Shown one piece after another: positions 522-20,042 of a DNA stretch of 32,416 nucleotides. The notes below the pieces were generated by a model, which saw only the letters and a program-made list of their open reading frames with translations, was not told the origin of the DNA and did no database searches. The stretch spans positions 1 to 32,416 of the forward strand of contig JAKIZO010000021.1 of the NCBI GenBank assembly GCA_022707965.1. Reading direction: 5' to 3'. This stretch comes from Bacteroidota bacterium (GTDB lineage Bacteria; Bacteroidota; Ignavibacteria; Kapaibacteriales; UBA2268). Position 1 is the first letter of the stretch, and the number at the start of each line of letters is the position of its first letter. The position numbers and the translations under genes were made by a program.

Positions 522-1919
522 CTAATCATTTGCTCGTAATTTCATTAGGCAAGCGACACAATCGAATTCAAGCTCGTAGCGTGTGTATGCATTTTGAAGG
601 TGGTATTTTTTATTATTGTTCTTTTTATTGATTTTAGGACATTCTCCAATTTCTCTTTTAATGCAATATTTTGTCGTCATAATGATTTTATTGCCTTTTT
701 TGCTTATTATTTCATAAGCCTTTTCTTTAATCATTGTGCCGTGCAATAAATAAAATTTTTCAGCTAGCGAATTCGATATGTTTTCTGAATAATCAACGGT
801 ATCAATAGGGAATTTATCTGTTTTAAGCGTAATTTTTGAAGAAAGTCTTTGATGATTTTCAATTATAACTTTTTCTAATGAATTTAGAAGTTGTCGTCTG
901 ATTGAGTTAATTTCAGATATTTTGACAAAAATTGGAATTTGAACTTTATTAATTAAATTCTTTATTTCAAAAGGAGTGTCGTTTGTTTTTCTTAATTGAT
1001 TTTCGATGATATCGATTTGCTTTGGATTTGAAGAAGTCTCGAAAGCGATTTTGCTTTCGGCATACATATCTTCATACAGATATTTAATTTTCAGATATTC
1101 ATTCTCAATATTTAGCTCGATATCTATGGGCAATTTCCTTCTGGTCTTATTTTGAGAGAGTAGCTTTTCAAACTCATAATCCTGATTGCGATAAATTTTC
1201 ACACCAATTTCTATTTTCAGTTGTTTATTCGGGATAACCCATTTATTTTCAACTTTATTTACCAGAAAACCTTCCAGCCCATTTTCAGTAAAATAGCATA
1301 ATCCATCGGCATTGTGAATTACTTCATTAGTGTCAATTAATATCTTGTTTTTATCAACTTTCGAAACAACACCTATAAACTGTCCGATAGATTTCGGAGT
1401 TTCAAAATTTGCCTTTTTTGAATGATTATCATCAATAAAGTAATTGGTAAATCCTCTACTGAAAGTTCTTGCGGGATTTGGCTCAAAATGCAAATATATA
1501 TTACCTTTGGAAGTCTTTTTTATGTCTTGCTTCCTTTCGATAAGTTCATCTATCTTTTTTCTGTAAAAAGCCGTGATATTTTTAACATAGTTTATGTCCT
1601 TCAATCTTCCTTCAATTTTGAATGAGGATATCCCCGCATCGACTAATTTTTCCAGATAGTCTGATAAATTAAGGTCTTTCAGGGATAGTAAATGCTTTTG
1701 CTTAATTATCGTATTTCCTTTGGCATCGAACAAATCATAACGCAAACAGCATATTTGCTTGCATTCGCCACGATTACCGCTATATCCCGTCGAATGAAAA
1801 CTTGCATAACATCGCCCTGAAAGCCCGACGCACAAAGCACCGTGAACAAAGAATTCAAGCTCCGCTTTAATATTTTCTCTAATTTCTTGAATTTGCTTTA
1901 AATTTAGTTCACGTGCCAA
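522..1919 (-). CDS. U32 family peptidase, C-terminal fragment (frameshifted gene)
   Basis: This is the larger part of a U32 (collagenase-like/TrhP-RlhA) protein. The U32 signature is complete at fragment residues 20-40 (ELEFFVHGALC, then GRCYAS), followed by RGECKQICC. The C-terminus has another Cys group (GECPK, then EFDCVACLMKL) typical of the longer U32 proteins. U32 members such as RlhA and TrhP act in rRNA or tRNA hydroxylation and carry conserved cysteines proposed to bind an Fe-S cluster. The apparent start is a TTG with no initiation signals. The frame continues upstream as RFILARELNL, which joins naturally to the preceding fragment. So this is the 3' part of one gene of about 607 residues, broken by a single-base shift near 1928-1933. 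Confidence 0.85.
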   Translation of the reverse strand: MARELNLKQIQEIRENIKAELEFFVHGALCVGLSGRCYASFHSTGYSGNRGECKQICCLRYDLFDAKGNTIIKQKHLLSLKDLNLSDYLEKLVDAGISSFKIEGRLKDINYVKNITAFYRKKIDELIERKQDIKKTSKGNIYLHFEPNPARTFSRGFTNYFIDDNHSKKANFETPKSIGQFIGVVSKVDKNKILIDTNEVIHNADGLCYFTENGLEGFLVNKVENKWVIPNKQLKIEIGVKIYRNQDYEFEKLLSQNKTRRKLPIDIELNIENEYLKIKYLYEDMYAESKIAFETSSNPKQIDIIENQLRKTNDTPFEIKNLINKVQIPIFVKISEINSIRRQLLNSLEKVIIENHQRLSSKITLKTDKFPIDTVDYSENISNSLAEKFYLLHGTMIKEKAYEIISKKGNKIIMTTKYCIKREIGECPKINKKNNNKKYHLQNAYTRYELEFDCVACLMKLRAND

Positions 1920-2332
1920 GATAAATCTGCTATCCCAATTTTGTCGAAGAATTTAATTCGCTCTAATTCGTAATTGTGCATCTGTGTGCTAGCAAAAATC
2001 TGAATTGGGGGCAAATCCATCATTAGAAATGCAGTATCTTGAATAATAATTGCATCAATGCCTGCATCGTAGAGTTCGAAAACTAAATTTCTCGCCTGTT
2101 CAAGTTCGTTCTCATAAAGAATTGTGTTTAAGGTTGCGTATACTTTTGCATTATAAAGATGTGCATATCGACAAAGCTTCTCGATATCTTTTGTTGAATT
2201 GCCAACTGATGCCCTTGCACCGAACTTATTAGCACCGATATATACAGCATCTGCACCATAATTAATTGCAGCAATACCATATTCTAAATTTTGTGCAGGA
2301 GAAAGTAATACGATATATCTAACGTTATTCAT
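1904..2332 (-). CDS. U32 family peptidase, N-terminal fragment (frameshifted gene)
   Basis: This is the N-terminal TIM-barrel part of a U32 protein: LLSPAQNLEYGIAAINYGADAVYIG at the start, then ARASVGNS and a region around IIIQDTAFL that matches the family's start. The reading frame runs normally to GIAD near 1930 and then changes to LSWHVN and a stop, while the family's expected continuation (a RFILARELNL-like stretch) sits in another frame on the same DNA. One missing base between about 1928 and 1933 explains both. The start overlaps the stop of the upstream TIGR01777 gene by 8 nt, so the pair is co-transcribed. Whether this is a real pseudogene or a sequencing error cannot be told here. 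Confidence 0.85.
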   Translation of the reverse strand: MNNVRYIVLLSPAQNLEYGIAAINYGADAVYIGANKFGARASVGNSTKDIEKLCRYAHLYNAKVYATLNTILYENELEQARNLVFELYDAGIDAIIIQDTAFLMMDLPPIQIFASTQMHNYELERIKFFDKIGIADLSWHVN

Positions 2333-3230
2333 TGTTTTTCAGTAAGTCGGCTAAAGCATCTTCTAATCGTTCAAATTCAAATTTAAAATTAGCATCTATT
2401 AGACGTTGCGGTAAAACTTTTTGACTGCATATAAGCATTGTAGCTGCTTCGCCAAGAATTATTTTCAATACAAACTCAGGAACTTTGAAAACTGCTGGTT
2501 TATGTAATACTTTGCCAATAGTTTTTGCAAGCTCTTTCATAGTGCAGGGATTTGGAGCCACAAAATTATAGACACCCTCGCAGCTTTTATTCTTTGCAAC
2601 GAACATAAACATTTCTACAAGGTCGTCAATATGCACCCAGGGAACAAACTGCTTGCCACTACCAATAGCACCGCCAAGATAATACTTGAAAGGACGCAAC
2701 ATTTTTTGCAAAGCACCACCCGATGGATGAAGCACCACCCCAATACGAGGAATAACCAGCCGACAATTCCGAGCCTTTAATGCTTCTTTTTCCCAGAGTT
2801 CGCAGACCTCGGCAAGAAACCCTTTCCCAATTGGACTATTTTCGTCTATTAATTCCTCTTTCTTGTCCCCATAGTAGCCGACAGCACTCGCAGAAATAAA
2901 CACCCTCTTTTCATTTTGAGGCAATTTGTTAATAATTTCTACTAATGAGTTTGTAACACTTGTTCGACTACGGATAATTTTAGCTTTTTGCTTGTCGGTC
3001 CAGCGACGAGCAGCAATATTCTCACCTGCAAGATTAATTATTACATCAGATTTTGATAAAGTGTCCAGTTTCTCATCGTCGGTTAATTCAAACCAGTTAA
3101 TATAGTCAATGTGAGAGGAATGTTTGAATTTTTGACGTGTAGCAACAGTAATATGAGCATCTTCCTTGATTAGTCGATAAATCAGGAATTTTCCTATAAA
3201 TCCAGTGCCACCAGTAATAAATACATTCAT
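2325..3230 (-). CDS. TIGR01777 family NAD(P)-dependent epimerase (YfcH-like)
   Basis: A 301-residue short-chain dehydrogenase of the extended, epimerase type. The nucleotide-binding glycine motif GGTGFIG is at residues 7-13, NLAGENI at 66-72 and SASAVGYYG at 113-121. The block GGAIGSGKQFVPWVHIDDLV is characteristic of the TIGR01777/YfcH family (also known as SulA homologues). The real substrate of this family is not established. The family starts directly with the Rossmann strand, so the ATG at 3230 is right even though it lies only 5 nt after the L9 terminator hairpin. It is followed by the U32 gene with an 8-nt overlap. Confidence 0.9.
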   Translation of the reverse strand: MNVFITGGTGFIGKFLIYRLIKEDAHITVATRQKFKHSSHIDYINWFELTDDEKLDTLSKSDVIINLAGENIAARRWTDKQKAKIIRSRTSVTNSLVEIINKLPQNEKRVFISASAVGYYGDKKEELIDENSPIGKGFLAEVCELWEKEALKARNCRLVIPRIGVVLHPSGGALQKMLRPFKYYLGGAIGSGKQFVPWVHIDDLVEMFMFVAKNKSCEGVYNFVAPNPCTMKELAKTIGKVLHKPAVFKVPEFVLKIILGEAATMLICSQKVLPQRLIDANFKFEFERLEDALADLLKNNE

Positions 3231-3235
3231 AATAA

Positions 3236-3275
3236 AAAAGCGTTTTATTACACTTACTGGTAATAAAACGCTTTT
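3236..3275 (-). terminator. Rho-independent terminator of rplI
   Basis: A perfect 15-bp inverted repeat (3236-3250 with 3261-3275) has a 10-nt loop. Read on the minus strand it ends in a run of six T residues. It lies 16 nt past the L9 stop. It ends only 5 nt before the start codon of the next gene, which leaves no room for a separate promoter downstream of it. Confidence 0.85.
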
Positions 3276-3291
3276 AATCGTAAGTTATTAT

Positions 3292-3744
3292 TTATTCTTG
3301 TTCTTCGTTGATAACCCATACTTTCAAAGTAGGAATAACTTCGCTGTGAAGCTTAATTTTCACATCGAAAATTCCCAGAGTTTTGATTGGGTCTTCAAGA
3401 ATAACATTACGTTTATCAATATCAAATCCACGAGCTTGAAGTTCATTTGCAATCATTTGTTGAGAAACGGAGCCGTAAAGCTTGCCTTCTTCGCCCACTT
3501 TCATAGGAATAGTAATTTGGACATCGGCGATTTTAGCAGCAATTTGTTCAGCGACTTGACGTTCTTTTTCGCTACGTTTTTCAGCAGAGCGCTTCAAAGC
3601 TTCAATTCTTTTCATAGCGCCTTCGGTAGCAACAAAAGCCAAACCTTTGGGCAAAAGGAAATTACGTGCGTAACCGTCACGGACGTTTACAACGTCGCCG
3701 ATTTTCCCAAGTTTTGCAATATCTTCACGAAGTATGATTTTCAT
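3292..3744 (-). CDS. rplI: 50S ribosomal protein L9
   Basis: A 150-residue protein of normal L9 length. The N-terminal rRNA-binding domain begins MKIILREDIAKLG and carries GDVVNVRDGYARNFLLP, the family signature. A charged helical linker (residues about 50-75) joins the C-terminal domain, which has GKLYGSVS. L9 binds domain V of 23S rRNA near the L1 stalk. It lies 32 nt after rpsF on the same strand. The usual rpsR (S18) gene between them is absent. A strong terminator follows. Confidence 0.97.
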   Translation of the reverse strand: MKIILREDIAKLGKIGDVVNVRDGYARNFLLPKGLAFVATEGAMKRIEALKRSAEKRSEKERQVAEQIAAKIADVQITIPMKVGEEGKLYGSVSQQMIANELQARGFDIDKRNVILEDPIKTLGIFDVKIKLHSEVIPTLKVWVINEEQE

Positions 3745-3776
3745 ATCTATATCCCAAAATATTAATTACAAAATTA

Positions 3777-4229
3777 TTATTCAGCTGCCTGCTCAGCAGT
3801 AGCAACTTCTTTTTCAGGTTTTTCTGCTTTTTCAGCTTTATCTTCTTTCTTTTCAGGTTCATCGGATGTAATTGAAGTGTTATCGCCCGTTTTACCTTCT
3901 GCTAATGCTTTTTCGAGACGCAACTTACGAAGGCGTTCAGGTAGAACAAGTGTAAGATGACGAAGAACAGTATCTTCTAATACTAAAAATCTCTCCAAAA
4001 CTGGAAGAACGCTTGGAACGCTATCGAAAACCAGATGCACATAATATCCGTTATATTTTTTATTAATCGGATAAGCAAGACGACGGCGTCCCCATTTGTT
4101 TATTTGGGTGATTGTGCCGCCATGGCTTTCAATGTAGCTTGTAATTTTGGAGATTACTGCATCAATGTCTGCATCTTCCAATGCGGCATTGATTATTACA
4201 GTTGTTTCGTAAACACGGCGTAAGCTCAT
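3777..4229 (-). CDS. rpsF: 30S ribosomal protein S6
   Basis: Residues 1-95 form the S6 domain (RRVYETTVIINAAL at the start, WGRRRLAYPINKKYNGYYVHLVF in the middle). S6 sits on the platform of the 30S subunit and normally pairs with S18. The last ~45 residues are a low-complexity tail rich in Lys, Glu and Ala, predicted disordered. Start ATG 4229 is backed by AGGAG six nt upstream and by a Bacteroidota-type promoter at 4291-4320. First gene of an rpsF-rplI unit. Confidence 0.97.
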   Translation of the reverse strand: MSLRRVYETTVIINAALEDADIDAVISKITSYIESHGGTITQINKWGRRRLAYPINKKYNGYYVHLVFDSVPSVLPVLERFLVLEDTVLRHLTLVLPERLRKLRLEKALAEGKTGDNTSITSDEPEKKEDKAEKAEKPEKEVATAEQAAE

Positions 4230-4290
4230 TTTTTCTCCTATTTTTTAATAATAGCCTTGCTTATTTAACAAATTGTTAATTATAGAACTA

Positions 4291-4320
4291 CAAATTTATA
4301 TTTTTTCTTGTAATTAGCAA
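4291..4320 (-). promoter_or_regulatory. Bacteroidota-type -33/-7 promoter of rpsF-rplI
   Basis: On the minus strand TTG (4320-4318, within TTTTG) is followed after 19 nt by TAAATTTG (4298-4291), a full TAnnTTTG match. The start codon is at 4229, so the leader would be about 55 nt. Confidence 0.65.
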
Positions 4321-4335
4321 AATATTATTTCATTG

Positions 4336-5085
4336 CTACTCCGCAAACTCAATGATTTTGGCTGAACCAGGTACTTTGAACCTAAATTGTTCAATTTTGT
4401 TGGGGCTCACAACAATCTTATCAAATGAGATTTTCATCTGTCCTTTATGTTCCGGTATTTGGATATTAATCACTTTTGCAAATACTCCGCTTTTCGTTGT
4501 TTCGAAGTCCTCGCATAGCACATCAAATATTTTTTCATTTGCTTCATCTTTGCGTTGGTATCTTAAAATACCATTTTTTTGATGTGAATATTCAATAAAA
4601 TCTATTGAGTAATCGGTTCGCTTTGCATAAACAACACTTTCCTTTCTCTCTTCATATTTTTTGTATTCTTCAGCATTCCCCATTACTTCATTGACTAGAA
4701 CTGAAATTAAATCTGGCAGCGAAAGATTAATTTTTAATGCTTTCTCGAAGCTTTTAGCATACGAATTCCCCTGTATTACAGAATTTTCGAACACGTTGTA
4801 AAAAACAAACTCCTTTTTGTCAGCATAAAGTCGCCCAACGGTAATTCCAAACGGACCGTATATAGTCATATTCAGGGAATCATACCCTGCAATGTTTATA
4901 TCAGATGAGAAACTTTGATTAAAATCGGGAAATTCAACTTTGAAGTCTGCTTTAATATTGATGTAATCAATATTTTTTCGTTGCAAATGAAAGATATGTT
5001 CAGTCTCTTGTTTCTCATCCAACTTAACACTTTTGCATCCTGCAAGCAACGTAATTAATAATAAAATAAATGTTACCTTTTTCAT
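4336..5085 (-). CDS. DUF4292-like outer-membrane lipoprotein
   Basis: A 249-residue predicted lipoprotein: a hydrophobic signal peptide ends in the lipobox LAGC with the lipidated Cys at residue 17. The body (an unmodified beta-rich sequence around residues 40-110: KADFKVEF, DSLNMTIYGPFGITVGRLYADKKEFVF) resembles DUF4292, a LolB-like Bacteroidota family thought to help lipoprotein or lipid handling in the periplasm. Family assignment is by motif resemblance only. It is a single gene. It diverges from the operon at 5163 and lies upstream of the rpsF promoter, with no obvious terminator between. Confidence 0.6.
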   Translation of the reverse strand: MKKVTFILLLITLLAGCKSVKLDEKQETEHIFHLQRKNIDYINIKADFKVEFPDFNQSFSSDINIAGYDSLNMTIYGPFGITVGRLYADKKEFVFYNVFENSVIQGNSYAKSFEKALKINLSLPDLISVLVNEVMGNAEEYKKYEERKESVVYAKRTDYSIDFIEYSHQKNGILRYQRKDEANEKIFDVLCEDFETTKSGVFAKVINIQIPEHKGQMKISFDKIVVSPNKIEQFRFKVPGSAKIIEFAE

Positions 5086-5090
5086 TATTC

Positions 5091-5121
5091 TTTGTTAATT
5101 TGAGTTAAATAAATATTTTTG
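5091..5121 (+). promoter_or_regulatory. Bacteroidota-type promoter of the 5163 operon
   Basis: TTTG (5091-5094) is followed after exactly 19 nt by TATTTTTG (5114-5121). This lies 41 nt before the first ATG at 5163, and AAGGA precedes that ATG by 7 nt. Confidence 0.65.
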
Positions 5122-5162
5122 TTGAAACATCGTATTAATAAACAAAAACAAAGGACGAAACA

Positions 5163-5345
5163 ATGTTTAAAAAAATTTTAGCTGCAATTATTGCTATCGT
5201 AGGTGCTTTGATTGCAATAAGATTGATATTTTTTATTTTAAGTATTACTTACAAAATTGTTTCCAGTTTTTTCTTTTTTGGTTTTTCTATTCTTTTAGCA
5301 ATACCTCTTTATTTGTATATCAAGAATAGACTTCTGAATAAATGA
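5163..5345 (+). CDS. small two-helix membrane protein A
   Basis: A 60-residue, very hydrophobic protein with two predicted membrane helices (about 5-28 and 34-53) and a basic C-terminal end (YIKNRLLNK). I do not recognise a family. AAGGA lies 7 nt before the ATG and a good promoter is at 5091-5121. Its TGA overlaps the ATG of the next gene (ATGA), indicating translational coupling. It resembles its neighbour in size, helix layout and a shared ending: AIPLYLYIKNRL here, AVPFYVIIKKEI there. The two may be tandem duplicates. Confidence 0.65.
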   Translation: MFKKILAAIIAIVGALIAIRLIFFILSITYKIVSSFFFFGFSILLAIPLYLYIKNRLLNK

Positions 5346-5539
5346 AAAAGCAGCTAATTACACCTCTGAGCTGGATTTTGGCAATCGCGGTTTCTGCCAT
5401 TTTTGTCAGGGTAGCGGTAATTTCAATTGTCGGTCATTTTGAAACTTCATTATGGCAGTACTTGATAATACCCATATTTTTGTTTGCTGTACCTTTTTAT
5501 GTTATCATTAAGAAAGAAATAATGAGAAATAATAAATGA
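5342..5539 (+). CDS. small two-helix membrane protein B
   Basis: A 65-residue protein with two predicted membrane helices (about 8-30 and 38-56) and a basic tail (KKEIMRNNK). No family recognised. It overlaps both neighbours by 4 nt (ATGA at 5342 and at 5536), so the three genes are translated as one coupled unit. It is similar in layout and C-terminal sequence to the preceding gene. The coupling to an outer-membrane-type protein suggests an envelope role, which is inference. Confidence 0.65.
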   Translation: MKKQLITPLSWILAIAVSAIFVRVAVISIVGHFETSLWQYLIIPIFLFAVPFYVIIKKEIMRNNK

Positions 5540-6837
5540 AAAAGATATTTGTATTAATTATTGTTTTGCTTGGCTTTGTGCAGCCAATTTTGGCAGCCCC
5601 TGCAAGCGAATATACAATTGATTTAGCACGCAATTTTAGCAAGGACATATTTGATTTAAACGGTGTGCCGTATTTATCTCCTATGGTCAAAGCAGTAAAT
5701 GCAACTTCAAATTCCCGATTTTATACCAAAGCATACGTTCCAAGAAGCGTTAGCAAGCCGTATTTCAAAATTACTGTTAATGGAATGGCGGGAATTGTCA
5801 GAAATTCTGATAAATTTTATTCCCCGCAGCTTCCGATGGATAGCTTCTCAATAAACAAACTTACACAATATGGAACAATTAATATTAATATTTTCGACCC
5901 ATCTAAATCAGAAATCGTCATCAGAGACACTGCTGGATTAATCAATTACCTTTTCAAAACTGTACTTTTCGATGGATATAAGTCCGGAAAGATTGTACCG
6001 CCCAAAAAAGCCTCATCTATTCTTGGCAAAGATACAACTCAGCTTCATCTTGATAATGCCGTTCTAACCGAGCTAGTCCAGAATCACGTGATTTATCAGT
6101 ACCTTCCGCAAGAAATTAAAGATACATTGCTGAATGTAATGAAACAGGTTCCGTCGTTTTTTACTTTGCCGGCAGGTGGGAATATTAGTACAATCGTAGC
6201 TGGTGTCCCACAAATCGAGATTGGCTCGCTCTATGGCACTGAGTTTTTACTACGGGTTGTTCCACCTCTTGACTTAGGAAAATATATCGGCAAATTTGCG
6301 TTTTGGGGCTTTGGTATCAAGCATAGCATTTCACAATATTTTACTGATTTTGTTCAAACAAGCGATGGTGAAATTTACGAATATGCTCCGTTCGACCTTG
6401 CGCTACAGGTTGTCTATCAAGGAACTAATTTGCAGAACAAAGTTGGAGTTACTCAATCGGACTTGAAAGCAAACGCACAAATCTGGAACGCCAATATTAA
6501 TATTTCTAAATCTTTCGATGATATTATTGATTTGTATGGTGGTTTTTCGTTCGATTATATCGACATCGATGCCCGATTTAAATATTTTTTGCCTGTGGAA
6601 ACGCAAATGCAATTGGGGTTGCTTCGTTACGACCCTGTTTTAGACAAAATTATGCCACCCGAGCCACCTGAATATCCCGGGGATACAAAACCTCAAACAA
6701 CAAAGATAAACTTAATTAATCGTTCTTGGAAAGCTACTTTTGGATTGAACAAAGCATTTGGAAATTTTTCAATTTTTGCTGATTATAATTTTAGCAGATT
6801 TAATATCTTTTCAGCTGGGATACAATATAAATTCTAA
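5536..6837 (+). CDS. DUF6588-like exported outer-membrane protein
   Basis: A 433-residue protein with a signal peptide cleaved after about residue 20 (QPILAAPAS). The middle portion (VAGVPQIEIGSLYGTEFLLRVVPPLDLGKYIGKFAFWGFGIKHSI) resembles DUF6588, a Bacteroidota family of predicted outer-membrane proteins, and the C-terminus alternates beta strands and ends in aromatic FSAGIQYKF, as beta-barrel proteins do. It follows the two small membrane genes with a 4-nt overlap. Function unknown. Confidence 0.65.
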   Translation: MKKIFVLIIVLLGFVQPILAAPASEYTIDLARNFSKDIFDLNGVPYLSPMVKAVNATSNSRFYTKAYVPRSVSKPYFKITVNGMAGIVRNSDKFYSPQLPMDSFSINKLTQYGTININIFDPSKSEIVIRDTAGLINYLFKTVLFDGYKSGKIVPPKKASSILGKDTTQLHLDNAVLTELVQNHVIYQYLPQEIKDTLLNVMKQVPSFFTLPAGGNISTIVAGVPQIEIGSLYGTEFLLRVVPPLDLGKYIGKFAFWGFGIKHSISQYFTDFVQTSDGEIYEYAPFDLALQVVYQGTNLQNKVGVTQSDLKANAQIWNANINISKSFDDIIDLYGGFSFDYIDIDARFKYFLPVETQMQLGLLRYDPVLDKIMPPEPPEYPGDTKPQTTKINLINRSWKATFGLNKAFGNFSIFADYNFSRFNIFSAGIQYKF

Positions 6838-6931
6838 CATTCCTGGTTTATCTTTGGGAAATGTTCATAATCAGAACGTTGTTATTGTATTTTTTTTTGT
6901 TTTTCTAAATAAGGTATTATCAGGAAATTTT

Positions 6932-7717
6932 ATGAAAAATGTTAATATATTAATTGTTGTAATTTTACTTTTCTTTTCATCAATCAACCTATTTTCACAA
7001 ATTAATACGGAAGTATTTCGAAAAGAGTTCTCAAAAGATGGAATTTTTCATAAAATAAACGTCGACATTGGCATCACCAAAGGAAATACTGAATATACAA
7101 CAGTTAGACCATCGTATCGAATAGACTGGCTGAAAGATAAATTTCATAATTTTGGGATTATCAGCTACGCGTACGCAGAAGATGCTGTCAAAAAAAGAGA
7201 AAACCGCGGATTTATTCATCTTCGTTCAAGCTACCAGATATTTGATTATTTGTATGGTGAATTGTTTCTGCAAAAGGAATTTAATGAGTTTATTTTATTG
7301 AAAGATAGAAATTTGTTCGGGATAACTTCAAGAATTCAGATAATAAACGAAATTATACAGATTGATTCAACCGAGAAACTTGAAATATATACATTTCTTG
7401 GACTTGGTGCAATGATTGAAAACGAAGAGTTGAAAACCAAACCCCGCAAAGAGACAACCGTCGGCAGGCTTACTTCTTATTTTTCTCTTGGAGTGAATAT
7501 CTCGCCAAATTTATTAATAAAAAGTATTACATACTATCAGCCACGTTTTTCAGACGACAAAGATTACCGCCTTCTGAATGAAAGTAGTCTTAATATAAAA
7601 ATCAATCAAAATTTAACGTTTCGCACAAGTTTAAGACTGCGTTACGATAGCGACCCACCCGAAAAAGTAAAACCACGCGATTTAAATCTACTGAATGGAA
7701 TACAAATAGACTTCTAA
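6932..7717 (+). CDS. DUF481 outer-membrane protein (YdiY-like)
   Basis: I place the start at the ATG at 6932, not further upstream in the same frame, because it gives a clean signal peptide (MKNVNILIVVILLFFSSINLFS, cut after FSQ) and a 261-residue protein. The body shows DUF481 features: GNTEYTTVRPSYR, then FIHLRSSYQIFDYLYGELFLQKEFNEF and LKDRNLFGITSR, ending in QIDF like a barrel. DUF481 includes the salt-induced YdiY; its role is not settled. A possible -7 element TATCTTTG is at 6849-6856 but without a matching -33. Confidence 0.75.
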   Translation: MKNVNILIVVILLFFSSINLFSQINTEVFRKEFSKDGIFHKINVDIGITKGNTEYTTVRPSYRIDWLKDKFHNFGIISYAYAEDAVKKRENRGFIHLRSSYQIFDYLYGELFLQKEFNEFILLKDRNLFGITSRIQIINEIIQIDSTEKLEIYTFLGLGAMIENEELKTKPRKETTVGRLTSYFSLGVNISPNLLIKSITYYQPRFSDDKDYRLLNESSLNIKINQNLTFRTSLRLRYDSDPPEKVKPRDLNLLNGIQIDF

Positions 7718-7766
7718 ACGATAAAAATATATCGATAAAAATATCTTTTATTTTAAAGGTTTTTTG

Positions 7767-7805
7767 CTTAATTTTGATTAAGTAGTAATTATCATTTTTG
7801 ATTAA
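7767..7805 (+). repeat. inverted and direct repeats upstream of the sensory hydrogenase
   Basis: CTTAAT-TTTG-ATTAAG is a perfect 6-bp inverted repeat at 7767-7782. TTTTGATTAA occurs twice, at 7772-7781 and 7796-7805, one copy every 24 nt, the second touching the start codon. The first copy overlaps TAATTTTG (7769-7776), a candidate -7 element. This layout could be a regulator site, but in such AT-rich DNA chance is a real alternative. Confidence 0.35.
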
Positions 7806-7806
7806 A

Positions 7807-9582
7807 ATGAAAAACAAAGAATTGCAAGTTGTATTCACGAATAAAGCTCGCTGCCGTGATTGTTATCGTTGCATACGCAACTGCCCAGTAAAAGCAATTG
7901 AAATGAAAAAAGGGCAGGCTTCGGTTATCGATAGTCGTTGTATTCATTGCGGAACTTGCATCGCAGAATGTCCCCAGAAAGCAAAAACATATCGTCGTGA
8001 GGTCGAACTGGTGCGAGAACTCTTAAATTGTGGCGAAAAAGTTGCTGCAAGTATTGCACCATCTTTCGCAAGTTTCTATGAAGGTTGGGAACGCATTCGA
8101 ATTCCTTCGGCACTTCGAAAACTTGGCTTCTCTTATGTTGCAGAAACATCAGTTGGTGCTTATTACACTTCAACAATTACGAAAGAACTGTTTCACAAAC
8201 AAAATAGTAATAGCCTTATCTCTTCTGCTTGTCCCGCAGTTGTAAGCTACATAGAGAAATACCATCCTGCATTAGTCGATAGATTAGTCCCTGCTGTTAG
8301 TCCTATGATTGCTCATTCTCGACATATCAAGAAGCGTTTTGGCAATGAGTTCAAAATTGTATTTATTGGACCCTGTATTGCTAAAAAGGCTGAATCTGAC
8401 CGTACAGAATACCAGGAAGATATTGATTATGTTATCACTTTCGATGAACTAAATGAACTATTCAAAGATGAGGGCATAAATTTAGCTAATTTTGAAGCAA
8501 GCGATTTTGATGAATATGCACCCCAGAATGCGTTGCTTTATCCACTTTCAGGAGGATTGCTCAAAACATCGGGCTACGACACAGACATTTTTCAAACAAA
8601 AGTAATCGCTTTAAGTGGCTTCGAAGATGTCAAAGAAATGGCAATTTATCTCGAAAATAATAATTATGAAAATATCCTGTTTGAGCCTCTTTTCTGCAAA
8701 AACGGATGTATCAATGGTAAAGGAATTACATCTGATAAAAATATGTTCGAGCGAAAAGAGGAAATTTTCAGCTACTTCAAAAAGTATCCCGAAAGAGAAT
8801 TTAAGCCAATTGACGATAATAACTTAATTGCAAACTTTTACAATGATGTTGCAATCGAACTCAAACAGTATTCCGAAGATGAATTATTGCAAATACTCGA
8901 AAAAACAGGTAATTCCTCGGAGGAAAATCGTTTGAACTGCCAGTCCTGCGGCTATAATACCTGCGAAGAAAAGGCTCGTGCGGTGCTCGATGGAATGGCT
9001 GAAATTGATATGTGCATACCATTTATGCGACGAAAAGCTGAAATGAAGAACGATAAGATTATCGAATCCAGCCCGAATGGAATTGTTATCGTCGATGAAC
9101 ATCTGAAAATTATTAGTATGAATCCTGCGTTCAGGCGGTTCTTTATGTGCTCGGAAGCAATTATTGGCAAACCAATTTCATATTTAATGGACCCGGAACC
9201 TTTTGTGCGAATCGCTACCAAACACGATTATATTATTGAACTTACTCAAAAACACGAAAATTATGGTATTGTGTGCCATCAGATTATTTATGAACTTAAA
9301 AATGAAAAACAAATCGTCGGAATATTTGTAAATATTACAAAAAATATAGCTGATAAGTCCAAGCTTGATGATATCAGACAGCGAACGATTAAAGAAGCCC
9401 GTCAATTGCTATCGCATCAAATTTCTATGGCACAAAACATTGCTAAATTATTAGCTGAAAGCACTGCCCAGGGTGAAGCTCTTGTCGAAAACATACTGAA
9501 AATCACAGAAGAACAATCTACAAGTGGAGAAGCAGAAAAAGATAAGCGAGGCTGGATATGGGATATGTATATGTCGAGATAG
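7807..9582 (+). CDS. hydS: sensory-type [FeFe]-hydrogenase with PAS domain
   Basis: A 591-residue protein, read here from the ATG at 7807 (a TTG lies 9 nt upstream). Two [4Fe-4S] ferredoxin motifs come first (Cys 16,19,22,26 and 45,48,51,55), then the H-cluster domain with all four ligands: Cys142 (SSACP), Cys190 (GPCIAKK), Cys297 and Cys301 (FCKNGC). An extra Fe-S module follows (Cys378, 381, 386, 403), then a PAS domain (about 417-512) and a helical tail. In catalytic enzymes the first motif is TSCCP; here the proton-transfer Cys is Ala141. That is the known hallmark of HydS-type enzymes thought to sense H2 rather than make it. It overlaps the phosphatase gene by 25 nt, so the two probably form one signalling pair. 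Confidence 0.92.
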   Translation: MKNKELQVVFTNKARCRDCYRCIRNCPVKAIEMKKGQASVIDSRCIHCGTCIAECPQKAKTYRREVELVRELLNCGEKVAASIAPSFASFYEGWERIRIPSALRKLGFSYVAETSVGAYYTSTITKELFHKQNSNSLISSACPAVVSYIEKYHPALVDRLVPAVSPMIAHSRHIKKRFGNEFKIVFIGPCIAKKAESDRTEYQEDIDYVITFDELNELFKDEGINLANFEASDFDEYAPQNALLYPLSGGLLKTSGYDTDIFQTKVIALSGFEDVKEMAIYLENNNYENILFEPLFCKNGCINGKGITSDKNMFERKEEIFSYFKKYPEREFKPIDDNNLIANFYNDVAIELKQYSEDELLQILEKTGNSSEENRLNCQSCGYNTCEEKARAVLDGMAEIDMCIPFMRRKAEMKNDKIIESSPNGIVIVDEHLKIISMNPAFRRFFMCSEAIIGKPISYLMDPEPFVRIATKHDYIIELTQKHENYGIVCHQIIYELKNEKQIVGIFVNITKNIADKSKLDDIRQRTIKEARQLLSHQISMAQNIAKLLAESTAQGEALVENILKITEEQSTSGEAEKDKRGWIWDMYMSR

Positions 9583-10709
9583 AAAAAAGCCAGGCTACTA
9601 AAAAAACTAATACTGCTTGCGGCGACGTCGTTTTGATTGATAGAGACCAGAATTCAACAATTATCATCCTTGCTGACGGAATGGGTTCAGGCGTTAAAGC
9701 AAGTATATATGCAACAATGTGCGTATCTCGATTGCGAGAATTATTAAAATGTGGGTTCACTTTGCTCCAGGCTTTTGCAGCTATGGTAAGAACTATGAAC
9801 CAGGCTGCTCGTGAAAATCTGCCTTATGCAGTTTTTTCTATCGCAAGAATAATCAATGACGGACTTGGGGTTGTGTTAAGTTTCGAGATGCCTCCGCCTA
9901 TTTATATTTCCAAAGGGTCAGCTACTGTTTTGAAAGGTAGGTCAACAACGGTTGAGAAATCTGTGATAACAGAAACAAATTGCTATCTTTCGGTTGGTGA
10001 TGCTTTGCTGCTTGTTTCAGATGGAGTTACACAAGCTGGAATTGGTCGGGGCTTACCTATGGGGCTCGGTCCTGAGGGAGTTTGCAAAATTATTAATGGA
10101 ATACTTTCTGATGGTAGAAAACTTTACGAAATTCCTCACCAATTGCAGACAAAAATTTACTCACTTTGCAACAATAACAACGATGATGATGTAACTTCAA
10201 TTTTGGCGTATTCACGAATTGGTGCAATTGCAAATGTGCTTTCTGGTCCACCGATAAACAAAAGTAGAGATTTTGAAGTTTGCAGAAAGTTTTTCTCGAT
10301 GGACGGTACCAAAATTGTTTGTGGTGGAACAACCGCAAGTATTGTTTCCAAATATCTGAACAAGAGAATTGATATTGACGATACTTTTGCAAATCATTTC
10401 ACACCACCAAAGTATTCGATTGAAGGTGTTGATTTAGTTACCGAAGGTGCAGTAACACTTAATCAGTTATATAATGTCCTGGATGAAGACCGCTCGCTAA
10501 TGGACGAGCAAAATCCTGTAACAGAACTATATGATTATCTAATGAACGCAGATAGAATTAATTTCTTTGTTGGAACTTCATATAATCCAGCTACCGATAA
10601 TATAGGGTTCGTACAGCAAGGGCTACTTTCGAGAAAGAAAATCATTCCATTGCTTGCTGCAAGATTTCGAGAACTTGGAAAAGTTGTAGTAATCGAAGAA
10701 ATTGATTAA
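9558..10709 (+). CDS. SpoIIE-type PP2C phosphatase linked to the hydrogenase
   Basis: A 383-residue protein whose residues 1-218 form a PP2C/SpoIIE phosphatase domain. The metal-binding acids are visible: Asp23 in CGDVV, Asp40 in ADGMGSG, Asp155 in VSDG and Asp209-211 in the last motif NNNDDDVTS. PP2C enzymes remove phosphate from Ser/Thr with two metal ions. Residues about 220-383 form a second domain (VCGGTTASI, then a long helix-rich stretch) that I do not recognise. The gene starts inside the end of the hydrogenase gene, so it likely transmits the hydrogenase signal to a protein partner. Such pairs are known among group C/D [FeFe]-hydrogenases. Confidence 0.85.
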   Translation: MGYVYVEIEKSQATKKTNTACGDVVLIDRDQNSTIIILADGMGSGVKASIYATMCVSRLRELLKCGFTLLQAFAAMVRTMNQAARENLPYAVFSIARIINDGLGVVLSFEMPPPIYISKGSATVLKGRSTTVEKSVITETNCYLSVGDALLLVSDGVTQAGIGRGLPMGLGPEGVCKIINGILSDGRKLYEIPHQLQTKIYSLCNNNNDDDVTSILAYSRIGAIANVLSGPPINKSRDFEVCRKFFSMDGTKIVCGGTTASIVSKYLNKRIDIDDTFANHFTPPKYSIEGVDLVTEGAVTLNQLYNVLDEDRSLMDEQNPVTELYDYLMNADRINFFVGTSYNPATDNIGFVQQGLLSRKKIIPLLAARFRELGKVVVIEEID

Positions 10710-14259: not shown

Positions 14260-14480
14260 GTATCTATCTGAAAAATATTGATTTAATTATCTTTTTCGAT
14301 TAATTTTCTATTATTTAAAAATTAGTTTCTTTTAATTTTTCATTTTTTCTTTGTATTTATCCATTCTTCATCGTTATATTATCTTTATATCTTTGTCGAA
14401 AATGACGTTTTTTTATAAACATTAGCAATCAAAATAAGTTATAAACACATAAGATTCTTTGTATAATTGTCGGAGGTTTT
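14260..14480 (+). promoter_or_regulatory. T-rich leader of the envelope operon
   Basis: A 221-nt gap that is strongly T-rich. TATCTTTG at 14388-14395 matches the Bacteroidota -7 element but has no TTG at the right distance upstream. GGAGG at 14472-14476 precedes the GTG start by 4 nt. AAAAATTA and TAATTTTT near 14315-14340 could form a weak hairpin after thpR. No small gene was found. Confidence 0.3.
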
Positions 14481-15032
14481 GTGAGAAAATACCTTGTTTT
14501 TTTAGTTTTTTTGGTCTTATTCTTTCCAATCAATGCTATTTGCAGCATATACTATTCCGCTGGTGCAAACTACCTGATACCTACTGAAAAATTTAAGGAT
14601 AAAAACAAAAAGTCATTGGGTATCAAGCTTGAAGTAATGAACAAGAATTATTGTCGCTTATGGTATGGATTGAGAATTGACCAATTCAATCTCAAAAAAG
14701 AAAATGAAATAAGCTACTACAAAAAAGAAACGCTTATTTCGCCTGTTGTTAAGTATTCTCCATTTGTTCGCGATTGCTTCGACAACAAGTTCCTTCCCTA
14801 CATCGAAGGACAAATTATTCTAAGCTCCATTTCCGGCACAGATAATCTCTCCAAACTTGGTTTTGGTGGGGGCTTAGGTCTTGGTCTTGCCTATAATTTC
14901 AAATGCTTTAAAAAATGCTGGATGATTGATGCACAAGCGATTTATTCGGCACCAAATTTTATCTATAGAGCCGATAAACGCGAGAACCTTAAATCTATTA
15001 ATTGTGGTTTATCTTTGAGTGTGAGCCTATGA
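14481..15032 (+). CDS. small predicted outer-membrane beta-barrel protein
   Basis: A 183-residue exported protein starting at GTG (GGAGG 4 nt before it). A signal peptide (about 22 residues, very hydrophobic) is followed by alternating beta-strand-like sequence: YYSAGANYLIP, KLGFGGGLGLGLAYNF and a C-terminal CGLSLSVSL. This suits a small outer-membrane barrel. No family recognised. Six Cys occur in the mature part, three within CFKKCW and NCG near the end. It is the first gene of a four-gene unit and overlaps the next by ATGA. Confidence 0.7.
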   Translation: MRKYLVFLVFLVLFFPINAICSIYYSAGANYLIPTEKFKDKNKKSLGIKLEVMNKNYCRLWYGLRIDQFNLKKENEISYYKKETLISPVVKYSPFVRDCFDNKFLPYIEGQIILSSISGTDNLSKLGFGGGLGLGLAYNFKCFKKCWMIDAQAIYSAPNFIYRADKRENLKSINCGLSLSVSL

Positions 15033-16327
15033 AAAACAATTTACTTCTTGTGTCTGTTGCGAGCATTGCGTTTCTAATGCTTTTCTCTTGCTCTGCAAAG
15101 GTTTCCTGGGACGACGCTGTTAGAATTAAGCAAGATTCTTCTTATAAATACATAACTCACCCAAAAACAAAAAATTTCCGTTCCGGCGCTACTCTTCGCG
15201 GAGAAGTCAAAAAAATCGAGGTCGTGGGTTATCCTGATACCTGTCCGATGAACAATTGGGTCTACAAAAGCTTTGTCGTTTTTGTTGATTCTTCTGTCAA
15301 AAAAAGAATCATCAGAGAACGTATCCCGCTCGACGATATAGATTTAGTCGGGCTTAAACTCAATCTTCCTCAAAATCAATATGGCAATATTAATTATTTC
15401 GAAAACTACAACGACCCGCTTTTGCCAAGAATGCTCAGAGAAGTTCCCGTTGATACTCTATATCGGGATACTTGCTCGACACCTTGCAATTGCAATTCTC
15501 TAACCATTGATTTCGATGTCGAAGTTCCCTGCTTACTTTGCCTTGAATGTCCCGATAGGGAACTTCCCAAATATTTCCTCGAAATCAAGCCTGGATATTC
15601 TCTTTACAATGATTTTAATGCCTTTTCAAAAAAGATTGGGCGCGATGATTGGACTGCCGATGTCGCCTTTGGCTATCGGTTCGGAAGCTCACGCAGGTGG
15701 GGGATAGGGCTAATCGCATCATCGGGTGTTCGCACTTTCAATCAATTTGATAGTTCCCTTACTCGAAGATTTTCCCTCAATTTATATGGACGCTACGAGC
15801 TTGTAAGAGACCGTTTCACCCGCAGTATTAACATTTCCGACACTTCCATTACTTCCACTCCTGAAATGTTTACTTACGATACAATCGTTTTTCCCAAAAA
15901 TTGCGAGTGTCCCGAAGAAGGTGATTCTCTGATAATTATCCAGAAAATTAATCCTAATTACCTTGTTGAAGTTAAAAATCGCCAAATAGTCGAAGAATAT
16001 GAAAAACGTCCTTGCTTTGTTCCTTTCGTTTACGGCTTGTTTGGTCTCAGCATTGATAAGTTTTCAGTTGAACTTATGCAATTAAGCTTCAATAATGACT
16101 GTAAGAAAAAATTAGACGCAAAAGCACCCGATTTGGACATTTCTCTACCTATAAATATTGGTTTTGGTATCGGTTTTGAAGTTCCAATCACCCGAAAAAT
16201 TGATTTCTCTACCGATTTAGGCTTCCGTTCTATTTCTTATGCCGACAAAACTTATAACTCAGGCTTTGTTTCACCTACTCGCAAACGCATCAATTCATTA
16301 ATTTTAAGGTTAGGAATAACTATATAA
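15029..16327 (+). CDS. lipoprotein with Cys-rich middle and barrel-like C-terminus
   Basis: I place the start at the ATG at 15029, which overlaps the previous stop (ATGA) and gives a lipobox LFSC with Cys21. The 432-residue protein has an N-terminal part of unknown fold, then a Cys-rich segment (CSTPCNCN, VPCLLCLECP near residues 150-180), and from about residue 185 a beta-rich portion (YFLEIKPGYSLYNDF, TADVAFGYRFG, FSLNLYGRYEL, ending SLILRLGITI) like outer-membrane barrel or PorT-like proteins. Not a recognised family. Together these suggest an outer-membrane-anchored protein; that is inference. Confidence 0.7.
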   Translation: MKNNLLLVSVASIAFLMLFSCSAKVSWDDAVRIKQDSSYKYITHPKTKNFRSGATLRGEVKKIEVVGYPDTCPMNNWVYKSFVVFVDSSVKKRIIRERIPLDDIDLVGLKLNLPQNQYGNINYFENYNDPLLPRMLREVPVDTLYRDTCSTPCNCNSLTIDFDVEVPCLLCLECPDRELPKYFLEIKPGYSLYNDFNAFSKKIGRDDWTADVAFGYRFGSSRRWGIGLIASSGVRTFNQFDSSLTRRFSLNLYGRYELVRDRFTRSINISDTSITSTPEMFTYDTIVFPKNCECPEEGDSLIIIQKINPNYLVEVKNRQIVEEYEKRPCFVPFVYGLFGLSIDKFSVELMQLSFNNDCKKKLDAKAPDLDISLPINIGFGIGFEVPITRKIDFSTDLGFRSISYADKTYNSGFVSPTRKRINSLILRLGITI

Positions 16328-16338
16328 AGGGAATTATT

Positions 16339-17214
16339 ATGAAAAATAAATTAATTTTGATAGCATCTTTAATTTTTAGTATTCTTCTTGCCGCTTGCAA
16401 CGATTGCCCGCTCGATAATGCAAATCCTGTTACGATTTGTCAGACAAGAATTGTAACTATCGAACAATTTAATTCTAATTTTACAATAGTTACAGACCCA
16501 AATACCGGGCAAGAACAAACTATATTAGACCCGGATTACAATATCGGCACTTATGAATTCCCGATTAACGCCAATTCTTCGGGTAGCTTTCCTAATGATA
16601 ATCGATTTGTAAATAAAGTTCAAATACCAATTGTTTCGCTGCCTTTTGTTGTAGATAATCAAATCTATTACGCCGGTATTGTTGACAATTACCCAATTAA
16701 TAATGAACTGCCTGGCGATATACTCGTTCGTGATGTTGATGCAGCTGCCCAGAGAGCCACACTTAGAATTTTCGGTAGCATCGACCAAATTGACCAAAAT
16801 TATCTGAACGAAGACGCACAGGCTTTCTGCAACTATGTAAATAGTATTTTGCCTACAATAGTTCAGTCTTTTGCAAGCTACAACGTCTCTAACCGTTTTG
16901 GTCAGAACCAGCCTGGTGCAACTGTTGTCCGCTTTGATGCTGCAACTATTGTCGTTATTGACCAGAACGGTAGAATTGTTGGAACTGTTGGCGCTCCGAA
17001 TGTCCCCACTCCACCTGCAAATATTATCAACGACCTTCGTTCGCAAGCAGCTTCTCGCATTGCTGTCGATTTAACTGTTGTCCCCGGCAACGTTTATACT
17101 TACATTGCGAAAAATGGAAAACGCTTCGTTTTCTTTGTTAGTGAAATTCGCCAAACAAACGTTCCGCCTAATAGAAAGCGTGTTACTATAATGTTTTATC
17201 CTTTGGATAAATAG
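16339..17214 (+). CDS. predicted lipoprotein of unknown function
   Basis: A 291-residue lipoprotein: signal peptide ending in the lipobox LAAC (Cys20). The rest is beta-rich and Asn/Ile/Val-rich without a motif I know (NSSGSFPNDNRFVNKVQIP, TYIAKNGKRFVFFVSEIRQ, then VTIMFYPLDK). It starts 11 nt after the preceding gene with GGGA upstream and ends 12 nt before the next, so it belongs to the same transcript. Homologues may be limited to close relatives. Confidence 0.75.
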   Translation: MKNKLILIASLIFSILLAACNDCPLDNANPVTICQTRIVTIEQFNSNFTIVTDPNTGQEQTILDPDYNIGTYEFPINANSSGSFPNDNRFVNKVQIPIVSLPFVVDNQIYYAGIVDNYPINNELPGDILVRDVDAAAQRATLRIFGSIDQIDQNYLNEDAQAFCNYVNSILPTIVQSFASYNVSNRFGQNQPGATVVRFDAATIVVIDQNGRIVGTVGAPNVPTPPANIINDLRSQAASRIAVDLTVVPGNVYTYIAKNGKRFVFFVSEIRQTNVPPNRKRVTIMFYPLDK

Positions 17215-17226
17215 GAGAGCAAATTT

Positions 17227-19968
17227 ATGAAGAACAATATATTTATTTGGTTATTTTTAGCGCTTTTAACTTATTCTTGTTGTTCGCCTAAATTCTATAT
17301 TTTGCCAAAAGGCAATCTTGATTTAGTGCGGCAGTCGAACCCTAACGATTCTATCAATTCTGCTTTTGATGAAATTGCCCCATATCAACGCGTCCTCGAA
17401 ACAAATTGTATCGATGCCTATCGTAAAGAAAATTCAAACCTGTATATCGAACCAGCTACTTCAAGAATTAAACCTTCTAACTCATTTTTCCGCGACTTGT
17501 TGGGCGATGATTTTGTTACTAAAAACAAGAGAATAATCGACTTTCTTACAAAACAACTCGAAAGTGTTTCGTTCCTTACTAACAATAGCGGCTTTGTTTC
17601 TCTTGCTCACGGTCCTGATGCTAATTACACTCGAATTATGGAACTTCCTTTCGTTGGTTACGTTGGAGGAACAGATATTTATTTCTTTCAGCAAGAAAAT
17701 GGTCGCTACGTTTTCCGTTCGATTCCCGAGCCGATTAATTCAGTTTTTTGGGATTCTCATCCCTGGGTCGGTACGGATTCTCTTTGCAATTTAGTCCTTA
17801 TTTGGGCATCGGATAGGGATAATCCCTATTCAATTGTTACATCGCTCGATAAGCAAATCATCAAGAAAGGAAATTCCGATATATTCTATGCTTTCCGTAT
17901 TGATGGCGTATGGTCAGTGCCACAAAAATTTGATAGGTCAAGTTTAATTAACACAGATGAATATAATGAAATAACTCCATTTGTTGCTTGCTCTAAAATT
18001 TCACCAAAGCTTCTTTTTGCATCAAACCGCGACAAAGATTATGATATTTACGAAGCCGATATTGAAATTGATTTCAAATCCCAAACTATTAGACCTATTG
18101 GCACAGCCCGCCAATTACCAAAAAGCAGCCAGTTCGACTTTGAAAATCAATTCATTAATACAAACGCAGATGAAATGTTCCCGCTTGTCGCATTTCCATA
18201 CTACAATGAAACTCAAAAAGAGCTTTTTATTTCCTCTAATAGAAATATCACACCTAAACCATTGAAATCTAAAAGCGATACACTTGTTGCAAACAAAGGT
18301 AAATTCGATATTTATATGTTCCCTTACTCACTTGAATGCAAAGAACCACCCCCTGTTGCAACAATTAATGTTAGAGTTGTAAATAAACAAAATCCTTCCG
18401 ACAGAGTTTTGCTTCCAATTATTAAACTCGTTGATTTAACAACGGGGCAGTCCCAGGAAAAAAATGCTTACGAAGCTTCTTTCAATTTGATTAACGGGCA
18501 TAGATACGAAGTTTGGGGAGGTTCCGCTCATAATACTCTTGATTGCGGCGACCCAGGTCAGGCAAAAATTCTTAAATATTATAAGTACAACGAAATTTTC
18601 TACACTGTCCCAAAAATTGTCTCCAAAGATAAGATAATTGAATACGACACAATTATTAATCCCACTCCCAAATTTGTTTACGATACTTTATACGTTACTG
18701 AATTAATTCCAATTACACTTGTAGATTCAATTCGTGTTGAAAAGGAATTTGTTCCTCATTCAGATGATAATCAATCCCAGAAAAAAGAAACTATTACCAA
18801 TATTCGCTATGTTCGTTGCCCACCACGAAATGTGAAGCCTGTCGAACCAGAAGTTATTCAAAAAAGTGAAGTTCGCCCCGAGCTTACAACTGAAATTATC
18901 ACTCAAACTCGCACTTCTCTTGTTGAGGTAACCAAGCAAGTTATTAATAAAAGACTTGTTTTTGAAGGTGGGCGAGTTCAGAAAAAAACTCTGAAATTAA
19001 TCCCTCAACTTGATTCAACAGATAAAATCGTTATCGGTCCGCTTGCCCGTTCTCAAAAGACAATGCTCAAACCCATTGACCTTCATTTTGAACGCGACAC
19101 CGTTATCAACGATGAAATTCTTCTGGAACCCGAATATTTTGAAAAGCCAAAATGCTCTGTAAAATTCGTTGATATTCTTGACGATTATTACAAAAACGTG
19201 CCTTACTACCAAACTGCATTCTGGGAAGTCAATACCTCAGCAAACCTTCCTCGTCATATTCTTCTTATGCAGCGTGGAAATCCTCTTGAAAATGCTACCT
19301 GTATCGAACTTCATCCTCGAAATACTCGATATGGTGTCTGGACAGGCGTCAACCGCGAAACTCGTATGAATGAATACCGCAAATATGCCCAAGCTGTCGA
19401 TAGAAATCTACTTGGTATGAAAACTGAGATTACTGACCACTTCATTCCTGCTCTTGAAGAAATTTCCAAATTATCACCTGAAACAAAACTTATCATTAAA
19501 CTTGAAGCATATAGTGATATTCGCGACGCCGGACTTTGCAATTATTTCGGCGAAACTGTAAGCTACATTCAAGGTAAAATCAATGATAATTCCCAGATAG
19601 TTTTAGATAGGGTTGTTATTAGAAATGGTGATAATCTCAATTCCGATAACGATAACCTTTCAAAACTTCGCGTCTATTACGGCTACAACGAACTTATGGC
19701 TTTGTTGCGCAAAGATGAACGATTCCGAAAATATCTAAATGAAGGGCTTGTTTTCTTGCCTACTCAAAAATTCGATAGTCCCGATAAAATGTATGAAGCA
19801 TTACGTAACGCCAAAATTATTATAATTGCAGAAGGGAAAAAATTCGACCCTGTAATTAAAGAAAACGATAAGGAATATGATGCTATTCGCCGCTTAAATC
19901 TGTTCATTCAGCTTATTAAATTTTCAGATAAATTCGTTATTTCTGCTGATTGTTGCACAGACCGGTAG
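17227..19968 (+). CDS. large envelope protein with PD40-like repeats and degenerate OmpA-like end
   Basis: A 913-residue protein, the last of the operon. It begins with a hydrophobic signal ending TYSCC (Cys18, an imperfect lipobox). Residues about 170-370 contain PD40/TolB-like strands: IWASDRDNP (192-200), LFASNRDKDYDIYEADI (263-279) and LFISSNRN followed by FDIYMF (333-365). A carboxypeptidase-regulatory-like stretch follows (about 378-440), then a long unassigned middle. Near the end EAYSD (760-764) and LSKLR (811-815) resemble the GHTD and LSxxRA pieces of OmpA peptidoglycan-binding domains, keeping Asp764 and Arg815 but with about 35 extra residues between. PD40 plus OmpA is the plan of PorE-like proteins of type IX secretion. 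This match is by eye. Confidence 0.7.
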   Translation: MKNNIFIWLFLALLTYSCCSPKFYILPKGNLDLVRQSNPNDSINSAFDEIAPYQRVLETNCIDAYRKENSNLYIEPATSRIKPSNSFFRDLLGDDFVTKNKRIIDFLTKQLESVSFLTNNSGFVSLAHGPDANYTRIMELPFVGYVGGTDIYFFQQENGRYVFRSIPEPINSVFWDSHPWVGTDSLCNLVLIWASDRDNPYSIVTSLDKQIIKKGNSDIFYAFRIDGVWSVPQKFDRSSLINTDEYNEITPFVACSKISPKLLFASNRDKDYDIYEADIEIDFKSQTIRPIGTARQLPKSSQFDFENQFINTNADEMFPLVAFPYYNETQKELFISSNRNITPKPLKSKSDTLVANKGKFDIYMFPYSLECKEPPPVATINVRVVNKQNPSDRVLLPIIKLVDLTTGQSQEKNAYEASFNLINGHRYEVWGGSAHNTLDCGDPGQAKILKYYKYNEIFYTVPKIVSKDKIIEYDTIINPTPKFVYDTLYVTELIPITLVDSIRVEKEFVPHSDDNQSQKKETITNIRYVRCPPRNVKPVEPEVIQKSEVRPELTTEIITQTRTSLVEVTKQVINKRLVFEGGRVQKKTLKLIPQLDSTDKIVIGPLARSQKTMLKPIDLHFERDTVINDEILLEPEYFEKPKCSVKFVDILDDYYKNVPYYQTAFWEVNTSANLPRHILLMQRGNPLENATCIELHPRNTRYGVWTGVNRETRMNEYRKYAQAVDRNLLGMKTEITDHFIPALEEISKLSPETKLIIKLEAYSDIRDAGLCNYFGETVSYIQGKINDNSQIVLDRVVIRNGDNLNSDNDNLSKLRVYYGYNELMALLRKDERFRKYLNEGLVFLPTQKFDSPDKMYEALRNAKIIIIAEGKKFDPVIKENDKEYDAIRRLNLFIQLIKFSDKFVISADCCTDR

Positions 19969-20000: not shown

Positions 20001-20042
20001 AAACCTTCCGAAGATTTTCGTGTCTTCGGAAGGTTTGTTTTT
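20001..20042 (+). terminator. terminator of the envelope operon (AACCTTCCGAAG hairpin, copy 2)
   Basis: A perfect 14-bp stem (AAACCTTCCGAAGA with TCTTCGGAAGGTTT), an 8-nt loop TTTTCGTG and then GTTTTTA. It begins 32 nt after the stop of the 913-residue gene. The arm shares AACCTTCCGAAG with the hairpin at 11359. Confidence 0.85.

Follow-up and report, generated by a model that had tools for sequence, protein, structure and literature searches.

A conserved four-gene envelope operon of Kapabacteria that resembles PorE/CHU_0125-type anchor proteins

Several described envelope systems pair a propeller of PD40 type with a domain of OmpA_C type. PorE (PG1058), a lipoprotein of the type IX secretion system in Porphyromonas, carries a PD40/WD40 propeller followed by a beta domain and an OmpA_C-like domain, and in the crystal the side chains of its residues D576, N584 and R591 hold a peptidoglycan fragment (PMC7192894). 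The equivalent pair in Acinetobacter OmpA, D271 and R286, has been shown to bind diaminopimelate (PMC6572160). CHU_0125 likewise combines PD40 with an OmpA_C-like domain, and its deletion in Cytophaga hutchinsonii leaves the cells more sensitive to harmful compounds and producing sixfold more vesicles (PMC5891637). TolB-Pal acts on the periplasmic side of the outer membrane through a propeller of PD40 type working together with an OmpA_C lipoprotein. Here we describe an operon of four genes, g1 to g4, which look like an unstudied relative of anchor proteins of the PorE/CHU_0125 type. It lies in the window, that is, the whole stretch of DNA analyzed (32,416 nt of contig JAKIZO010000021.1, from a member of the Kapaibacteriales; Table 1).

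A conserved four-gene module

The layout described in the earlier note is present in full: four genes stand back to back behind a GGAGG leader, with an ATGA overlap (15029-15032) between the g1 stop and the g2 ATG, gaps of 11 nt between g2 and g3 and 12 nt between g3 and g4, and a terminator after the last gene. The stem of this terminator is by far the longest among 10 terminator-like sites, for which the shuffled expectation is 7.1; promoter-like sites showed no excess over chance (25 found, 27.5 expected). All four genes are real and under purifying selection, since comparison with the closest long relative, G003, gives dN/dS values of 0.09 for g1, 0.08 for g2, 0.04 for g3 and 0.10 for g4, and the gene order persists well outside the genus.

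Table 1. Coordinates of the operon features in the window
Feature	Coordinates	Strand	Description	Basis
GGAGG ribosome-binding site	14472..14476	+	4 nt 5' of the g1 GTG	sequence
g1	14481..15032	+	183 aa, GTG start; signal peptide and predicted small outer-membrane beta-barrel
g2	15029..16327	+	432 aa lipoprotein (LFSC); N-terminal domain and predicted C-terminal 8-stranded barrel	AF2, Foldseek
g2 barrel region	15572..16324	+	residues 182-432; low-confidence loop ~264-321
g3	16339..17214	+	beta-rich lipoprotein of 291 aa (LAAC); outside the curated families
g4	17227..19968	+	913 aa predicted lipoprotein (Cys18): PD40 propeller, beta domain, linker, OmpA_C-like domain
g4 PD40-type propeller region	17356..18339	+	residues ~44-371	PD40 in homologues and paralogues
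g4 beta domain	18352..18561	+	residues ~376-445	position and sequence pattern only
g4 degenerate OmpA_C-like domain	19144..19935	+	residues ~640-903; insertion ~770-805
Intrinsic terminator	20001..20036	+	15-bp stem, 6-nt loop, T-tail

The order g1-g2-g3-g4, with all genes co-oriented, occurs in at least 27 of 48 named loci, the loci with the operon belonging mostly to Candidatus Kapabacteria and Ignavibacteria MAGs, and it recurs across the regions fetched around the operon in a broad set of relatives. The flanking genes vary, and besides the four no gene family is found in more than six loci. The cluster is a real conserved module that stays intact while its neighbors change; loss of the order in relatives, which the earlier note had named as evidence against its reading, was not what we found. 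A strong g2 match, used as a proxy for the operon, is present in 29 of 60 relatives and g4 is detected at some level in 43 of them. When 198 genomes were sampled across the phylum, strong g4 matches, those with E below 1e-100, were confined to the window's own order. The module is not invariant. Four loci (L065, L067, L085 and L088) are missing g3, and only a few nt separate g2 from g4 there; in genome G006, g1-g2-g3 lie on one contig (L177) and g4 on a different one.

Elsewhere in the window (7798-10709), judged from the translation only, a 594 aa iron-sulphur protein resembles a sensory [FeFe]-hydrogenase with a PAS-like region, and its end overlaps the following gene for a 383 aa SpoIIE/PP2C-like phosphatase. 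This looks like a redox or hydrogen-sensing signaling pair.

Predicted folds and domains of the four proteins

Searches of the window proteins with Pfam and NCBIfam profiles returned nothing significant, and searches of the PDB by sequence profile gave no meaningful match for any of the four. The earlier statement that the first three proteins belong to no recognized family therefore holds for curated profiles applied to the window proteins, but g1 and g2 can be assigned at the level of fold. Homology suggests that g1 is a small barrel of the OMP_b-brl type (PF13505), a family matched by 9 of 21 g1 homologues (best E 3.6e-6) and approached by the window protein at E 0.21. For g2, the AF2 model (mean pLDDT 76) predicts that the C-terminal half is an 8-stranded outer-membrane barrel, the fold of OmpA, OmpW and NspA in the PF13505 group. 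The barrel strands score mostly 85-96, with low values at the loop of residues 264-321, and Foldseek matched the model at probability 1.0 to NspA (TM by target length 0.71), OmpW (0.58-0.63) and the OmpA barrel (0.48) in the PDB; the OMP_b-brl profile matches 4 of 23 g2 homologues. The pTM of the model is 0.48, so the arrangement of the g2 domains is uncertain. Unlike these barrels, g2 is lipidated and carries a separate N-terminal domain ahead of the barrel, and a lipidated 8-stranded barrel in a single chain is an unusual protein design. The PorP/SprF profile (TIGR03519) had no match among the 23 g2 homologues. We also considered and rejected an identity with BamM of the Bacteroidota BAM complex, which has an isomerase fold and calcium sites (PMC12611786): a single g2 homologue of the 23 matched, at E 0.06, which we take as noise.

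The g3 model is confident (pLDDT 89) and beta-rich. Its best Foldseek neighbors are the HmuY-type lipoproteins PinO (probability 0.91), Tfo, BVU_2192, BF2707, HmuY and BfrB, but the TM values against these structures are only 0.25 to 0.37, a poor overlay, and the resemblance is weak and strongest at the last strands. Profile-profile comparison with HmuY homologues gave 19% probability over 26 residues, and the HmuY profile (PF14064) matched none of 20 g3 homologues; g3 is moreover longer than the HmuY-type lipoproteins and has no adjoining receptor gene. Membership in the HmuY family was accordingly dropped and the resemblance retained as a fold-level hint, leaving g3 as a beta-rich lipoprotein outside the curated families whose model gives a weak HmuY-like fold signal.

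Two lipoproteins were claimed in the earlier note; the count rises to three with g4, where Cys18 (YSC-C) is invariant in 24 of 24 homologues and reads as the third lipid anchor of the operon. The PD40-like repeats noted in this 913-residue protein are real though diverged: the window protein has no Pfam match to PD40, whereas 8 of 24 homologues do and the paralogues match with E 6e-10 to 5e-17. The predicted beta domain that follows would occupy the position of the carboxypeptidase-regulatory-like domain of PorE. None of the 24 homologues has a TPR match.

The last 270 residues of g4 follow the motif order of OmpA_C ('KLIIKLEAYSD ... N-x-x-L-S-x-x-R ... RR'), the first two motifs being set apart by an insertion of about 36 residues. 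All 24 homologues keep D764, N808 and R815 unchanged, and these residues correspond to D576, N584 and R591 of PorE, the N-to-R spacing being 7 residues in both contact sets. The OmpA_C profile of Pfam (PF00691) matched neither the window protein nor any of the 24 homologues, and an ordinary profile-profile comparison with OmpA domains gave 5% probability. When residues 770-805 were deleted, the match to the OmpA-domain profile rose from 12% to 71% probability (E 3.8e-5), whereas deletions of the same size at 22 other positions in g4 gave no value above 19%. The deletion site was picked after the motifs had been seen, and it is therefore this sliding control, rather than the raw score, that carries the argument. 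On the strength of the insertion-removed match with its control and of the invariant contact residues, the C-terminal domain of g4 is probably a variant of OmpA_C, albeit one that falls outside the family by profile.

Some further features of these proteins deserve mention. In six loci (L035, L039, L040, L044, L046 and L051) the g4 homologue has an extra C-terminal domain after the OmpA_C-like one, SPOR-like by eye and with no Pfam match. The g4 C-terminal Cys-Cys (C909-C910, window 19951-19956) is invariant in 24 of 24 homologues, and the N-terminal domain of g2 contains a conserved Cys-x-Cys, C153 and C155, followed by another cysteine, C174 (window 15485-15550), so that a disulphide between the two proteins is conceivable.

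Alternative versions and named relatives

A paralogous set of three genes encodes a g2-like lipoprotein with a barrel (336-401 aa), a lipoprotein of 450-840 aa at the place of g3 and a PD40 protein of 760-975 aa, and it is often found in genomes without the window's operon, as in L169 (7517-12561), L170 (8048-13777) and L171 (8464-14273). Further operons of this kind were seen in L164, L172, L173 and L174, mostly in genomes of the same sort. Of the 60 relatives, 17 give strong matches to this second type, and 3 of these 17 also have the first type, against 8.2 expected by chance; the one-sided probability of this deficit is 0.003 with shared ancestry ignored, and it is therefore a hint, not a test, that the three-gene version is found preferentially in genomes lacking the first. 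Prolixibacteraceae share the plan in a more remote version, whose g4 also ends in Cys-Cys. The middle protein has Ig-like matches in L170 and in L104. The latter (857-9708) follows the general plan of the paralogous loci, with an Ig-like lipoprotein of 648 aa and a PD40 protein of 630 aa; immediately upstream of these lies a protein of 1308 aa that carries a type IX tail. The window's own genome also holds, on contig 44, a convergent pair (L181, 5426-9166) in which a solitary g4 paralogue, a 573 aa lipoprotein with PD40 and a degenerate OmpA-like end, faces a 669 aa PD40-OmpA protein whose OmpA domain is intact.

By score, the nearest named relative of g4 is CHU_0125. Its family, NF053607, is the best-scoring named family, with E 1.2e-9 for g4 homologues and E 9e-39 for paralogues; the scores of 37 bits for type A homologues and 133 bits for the g4 paralogue of the own genome lie below the family cut-off of 620 bits, and the matches to type A g4 span the propeller part only. 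CHU_0125 carries TPR, which is absent from g4, and is not known within a four-gene operon of this kind. PorE shares its domain order with g4, as well as the three wall-contact residues and their N-to-R spacing, but differs in its TPR domain, and g4 has in addition the insertion in the OmpA_C-like domain and a longer linker. The PorE profile (NF052230, cut-off 600 bits) did not match the window protein; the best g4 homologue reached E 1.5e-4, one homologue about 20 bits and a paralogue 101 bits, all far below the cut-off. Proteins of PorE type are numerous in each of 30 genomes tested and include better PorE matches than g4 in all of them, the best in the own genome being the 669 aa protein on contig 44 (E 2e-64). 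Of 60 relatives, 58 have SprA (SprA_N) and all 60 have type IX tails, whereas 29 have the operon. From this difference in distribution and from the better PorE matches elsewhere, g4 is neither a PorE orthologue nor a core part of type IX secretion. The likeness to type IX secretion suggested earlier thus survives in plan, in that g4 runs from PD40 to OmpA_C like PorE and CHU_0125, and fails by distribution. With respect to TolB-Pal, g4 has propeller and OmpA_C-like domain in one chain and the operon is without TolQRA genes. A role as TolB substitute was also considered, because no TolB above cut-off was found in 30 relatives; the relatives have many PD40 proteins, and we therefore draw no conclusion on this point.

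A predicted membrane-to-wall scaffold and its alternatives

The earlier description of a conserved four-gene envelope operon of outer-membrane barrels and lipoproteins stands, and we consider it rather probable that its products form a periplasm-facing complex tethering the outer membrane to peptidoglycan, similar in plan to PorE and CHU_0125. What the data establish is the operon with its conserved order, the lipoboxes and barrel traits, the predicted folds of g2 and g3, the homology of the propeller and the invariance of the wall-contact residues; we infer complex formation, topology, wall binding and cellular role alike. In the proposed arrangement, g1 and the C-terminal half of g2 would sit in the outer membrane as small barrels, g2 being additionally held by its lipid and offering its N-terminal domain as a periplasmic adaptor. 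g3 would serve as a further periplasmic lipoprotein adaptor, absent from some loci, while the PD40 propeller of g4 would provide a docking platform and its OmpA_C-like domain would grip the diaminopimelate peptide of the wall. Such a membrane-to-wall scaffold may stabilize the outer membrane or position outer-membrane machinery, and by analogy with CHU_0125 and PorE a role in outer-membrane integrity or machinery positioning is the most likely. Against the scaffold count the absence of g3 from four loci, the separate position of g4 in one genome, the lack of TPR in g4, the need to take out the insertion before the g4 C-terminal domain matches OmpA profiles, and the uncertain domain arrangement in the g2 model.

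The periplasmic orientation bears on the view of the earlier note that the complex is a surface one. Bacteroidota commonly export lipoproteins to the surface, and the position of g3 is variable, with Ig-like repeats in the paralogues, as might be expected of an adhesive or protective complex exposed on the cell. An acidic pattern after the lipid cysteine is the signal for such export, however, and it is not consistent in the homologues of g2, g3 and g4; several regular-expression lipobox readings were wrong, an earlier cysteine having been matched, and therefore only the overall pattern is used here. g4 moreover retains the peptidoglycan-contact residues, which need a periplasmic position. For these two reasons the complex should face the periplasm, and we regard a surface complex as improbable. 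It is very improbable, too, that the operon captures ligands, with g3 binding haem or another small ligand in the manner of HmuY and handing it to the g1 and g2 barrels. The repeated appearance of HmuY-type lipoproteins as best neighbors of a confident model speaks for this possibility, but the overlay and the profile comparison are poor, the operon has no TonB-dependent receptor, 8-stranded barrels seldom transport, and in other lineages g3 is missing or replaced by an Ig-like protein.

That the operon serves type IX secretion as an accessory, a second PorE/PorP-like station for a subset of cargo, is an unlikely alternative. Cargo tails occur in all genomes tested and SprA in nearly all, g4 follows the domain order of PorE except for TPR, and one paralogous locus (L104) has its tailed protein directly upstream. 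Yet the operon is present in only half as many genomes as SprA, the g2 homologues leave the PorP/SprF profile unmatched, better PorE matches lie at other sites in all genomes tested, and a cargo-tailed protein lies near only a few loci; a search for a cargo gene shared by the surroundings of all loci found none. That the four are unrelated envelope genes adjoining by chance would fit the loss of g3 and the displacement of g4, but it is already contradicted by the gene-order data, that is, by the same order and strand in so many loci with unrelated flanks and by the parallel order in two more distant versions, and we give it next to no credence.

Outer membrane-to-wall attachment and the assembly platforms of Bacteroidota and their relatives are poorly known, and new subunits of outer-membrane machines have been found recently, for example in the BAM complex of Flavobacterium (PMC12611786). 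A lipidated 8-stranded barrel and a predicted wall-gripping propeller lipoprotein, encoded in one conserved operon, provide defined and testable partners, and the alternative versions of the operon amount to a natural experiment on interchangeable parts. Tentatively, and with more doubt than confidence, we suggest that this operon may be the founding example of an unrecognized class of outer-membrane complex built in modular fashion from a barrel, a lipidated barrel, an exchangeable lipoprotein and a wall-anchored propeller. Alternative versions within this class would stand in for one another across Kapabacteria and reappear in Prolixibacteraceae, and the class may represent a membrane-to-wall station of general use, separate from Tol-Pal, BAM and type IX secretion.
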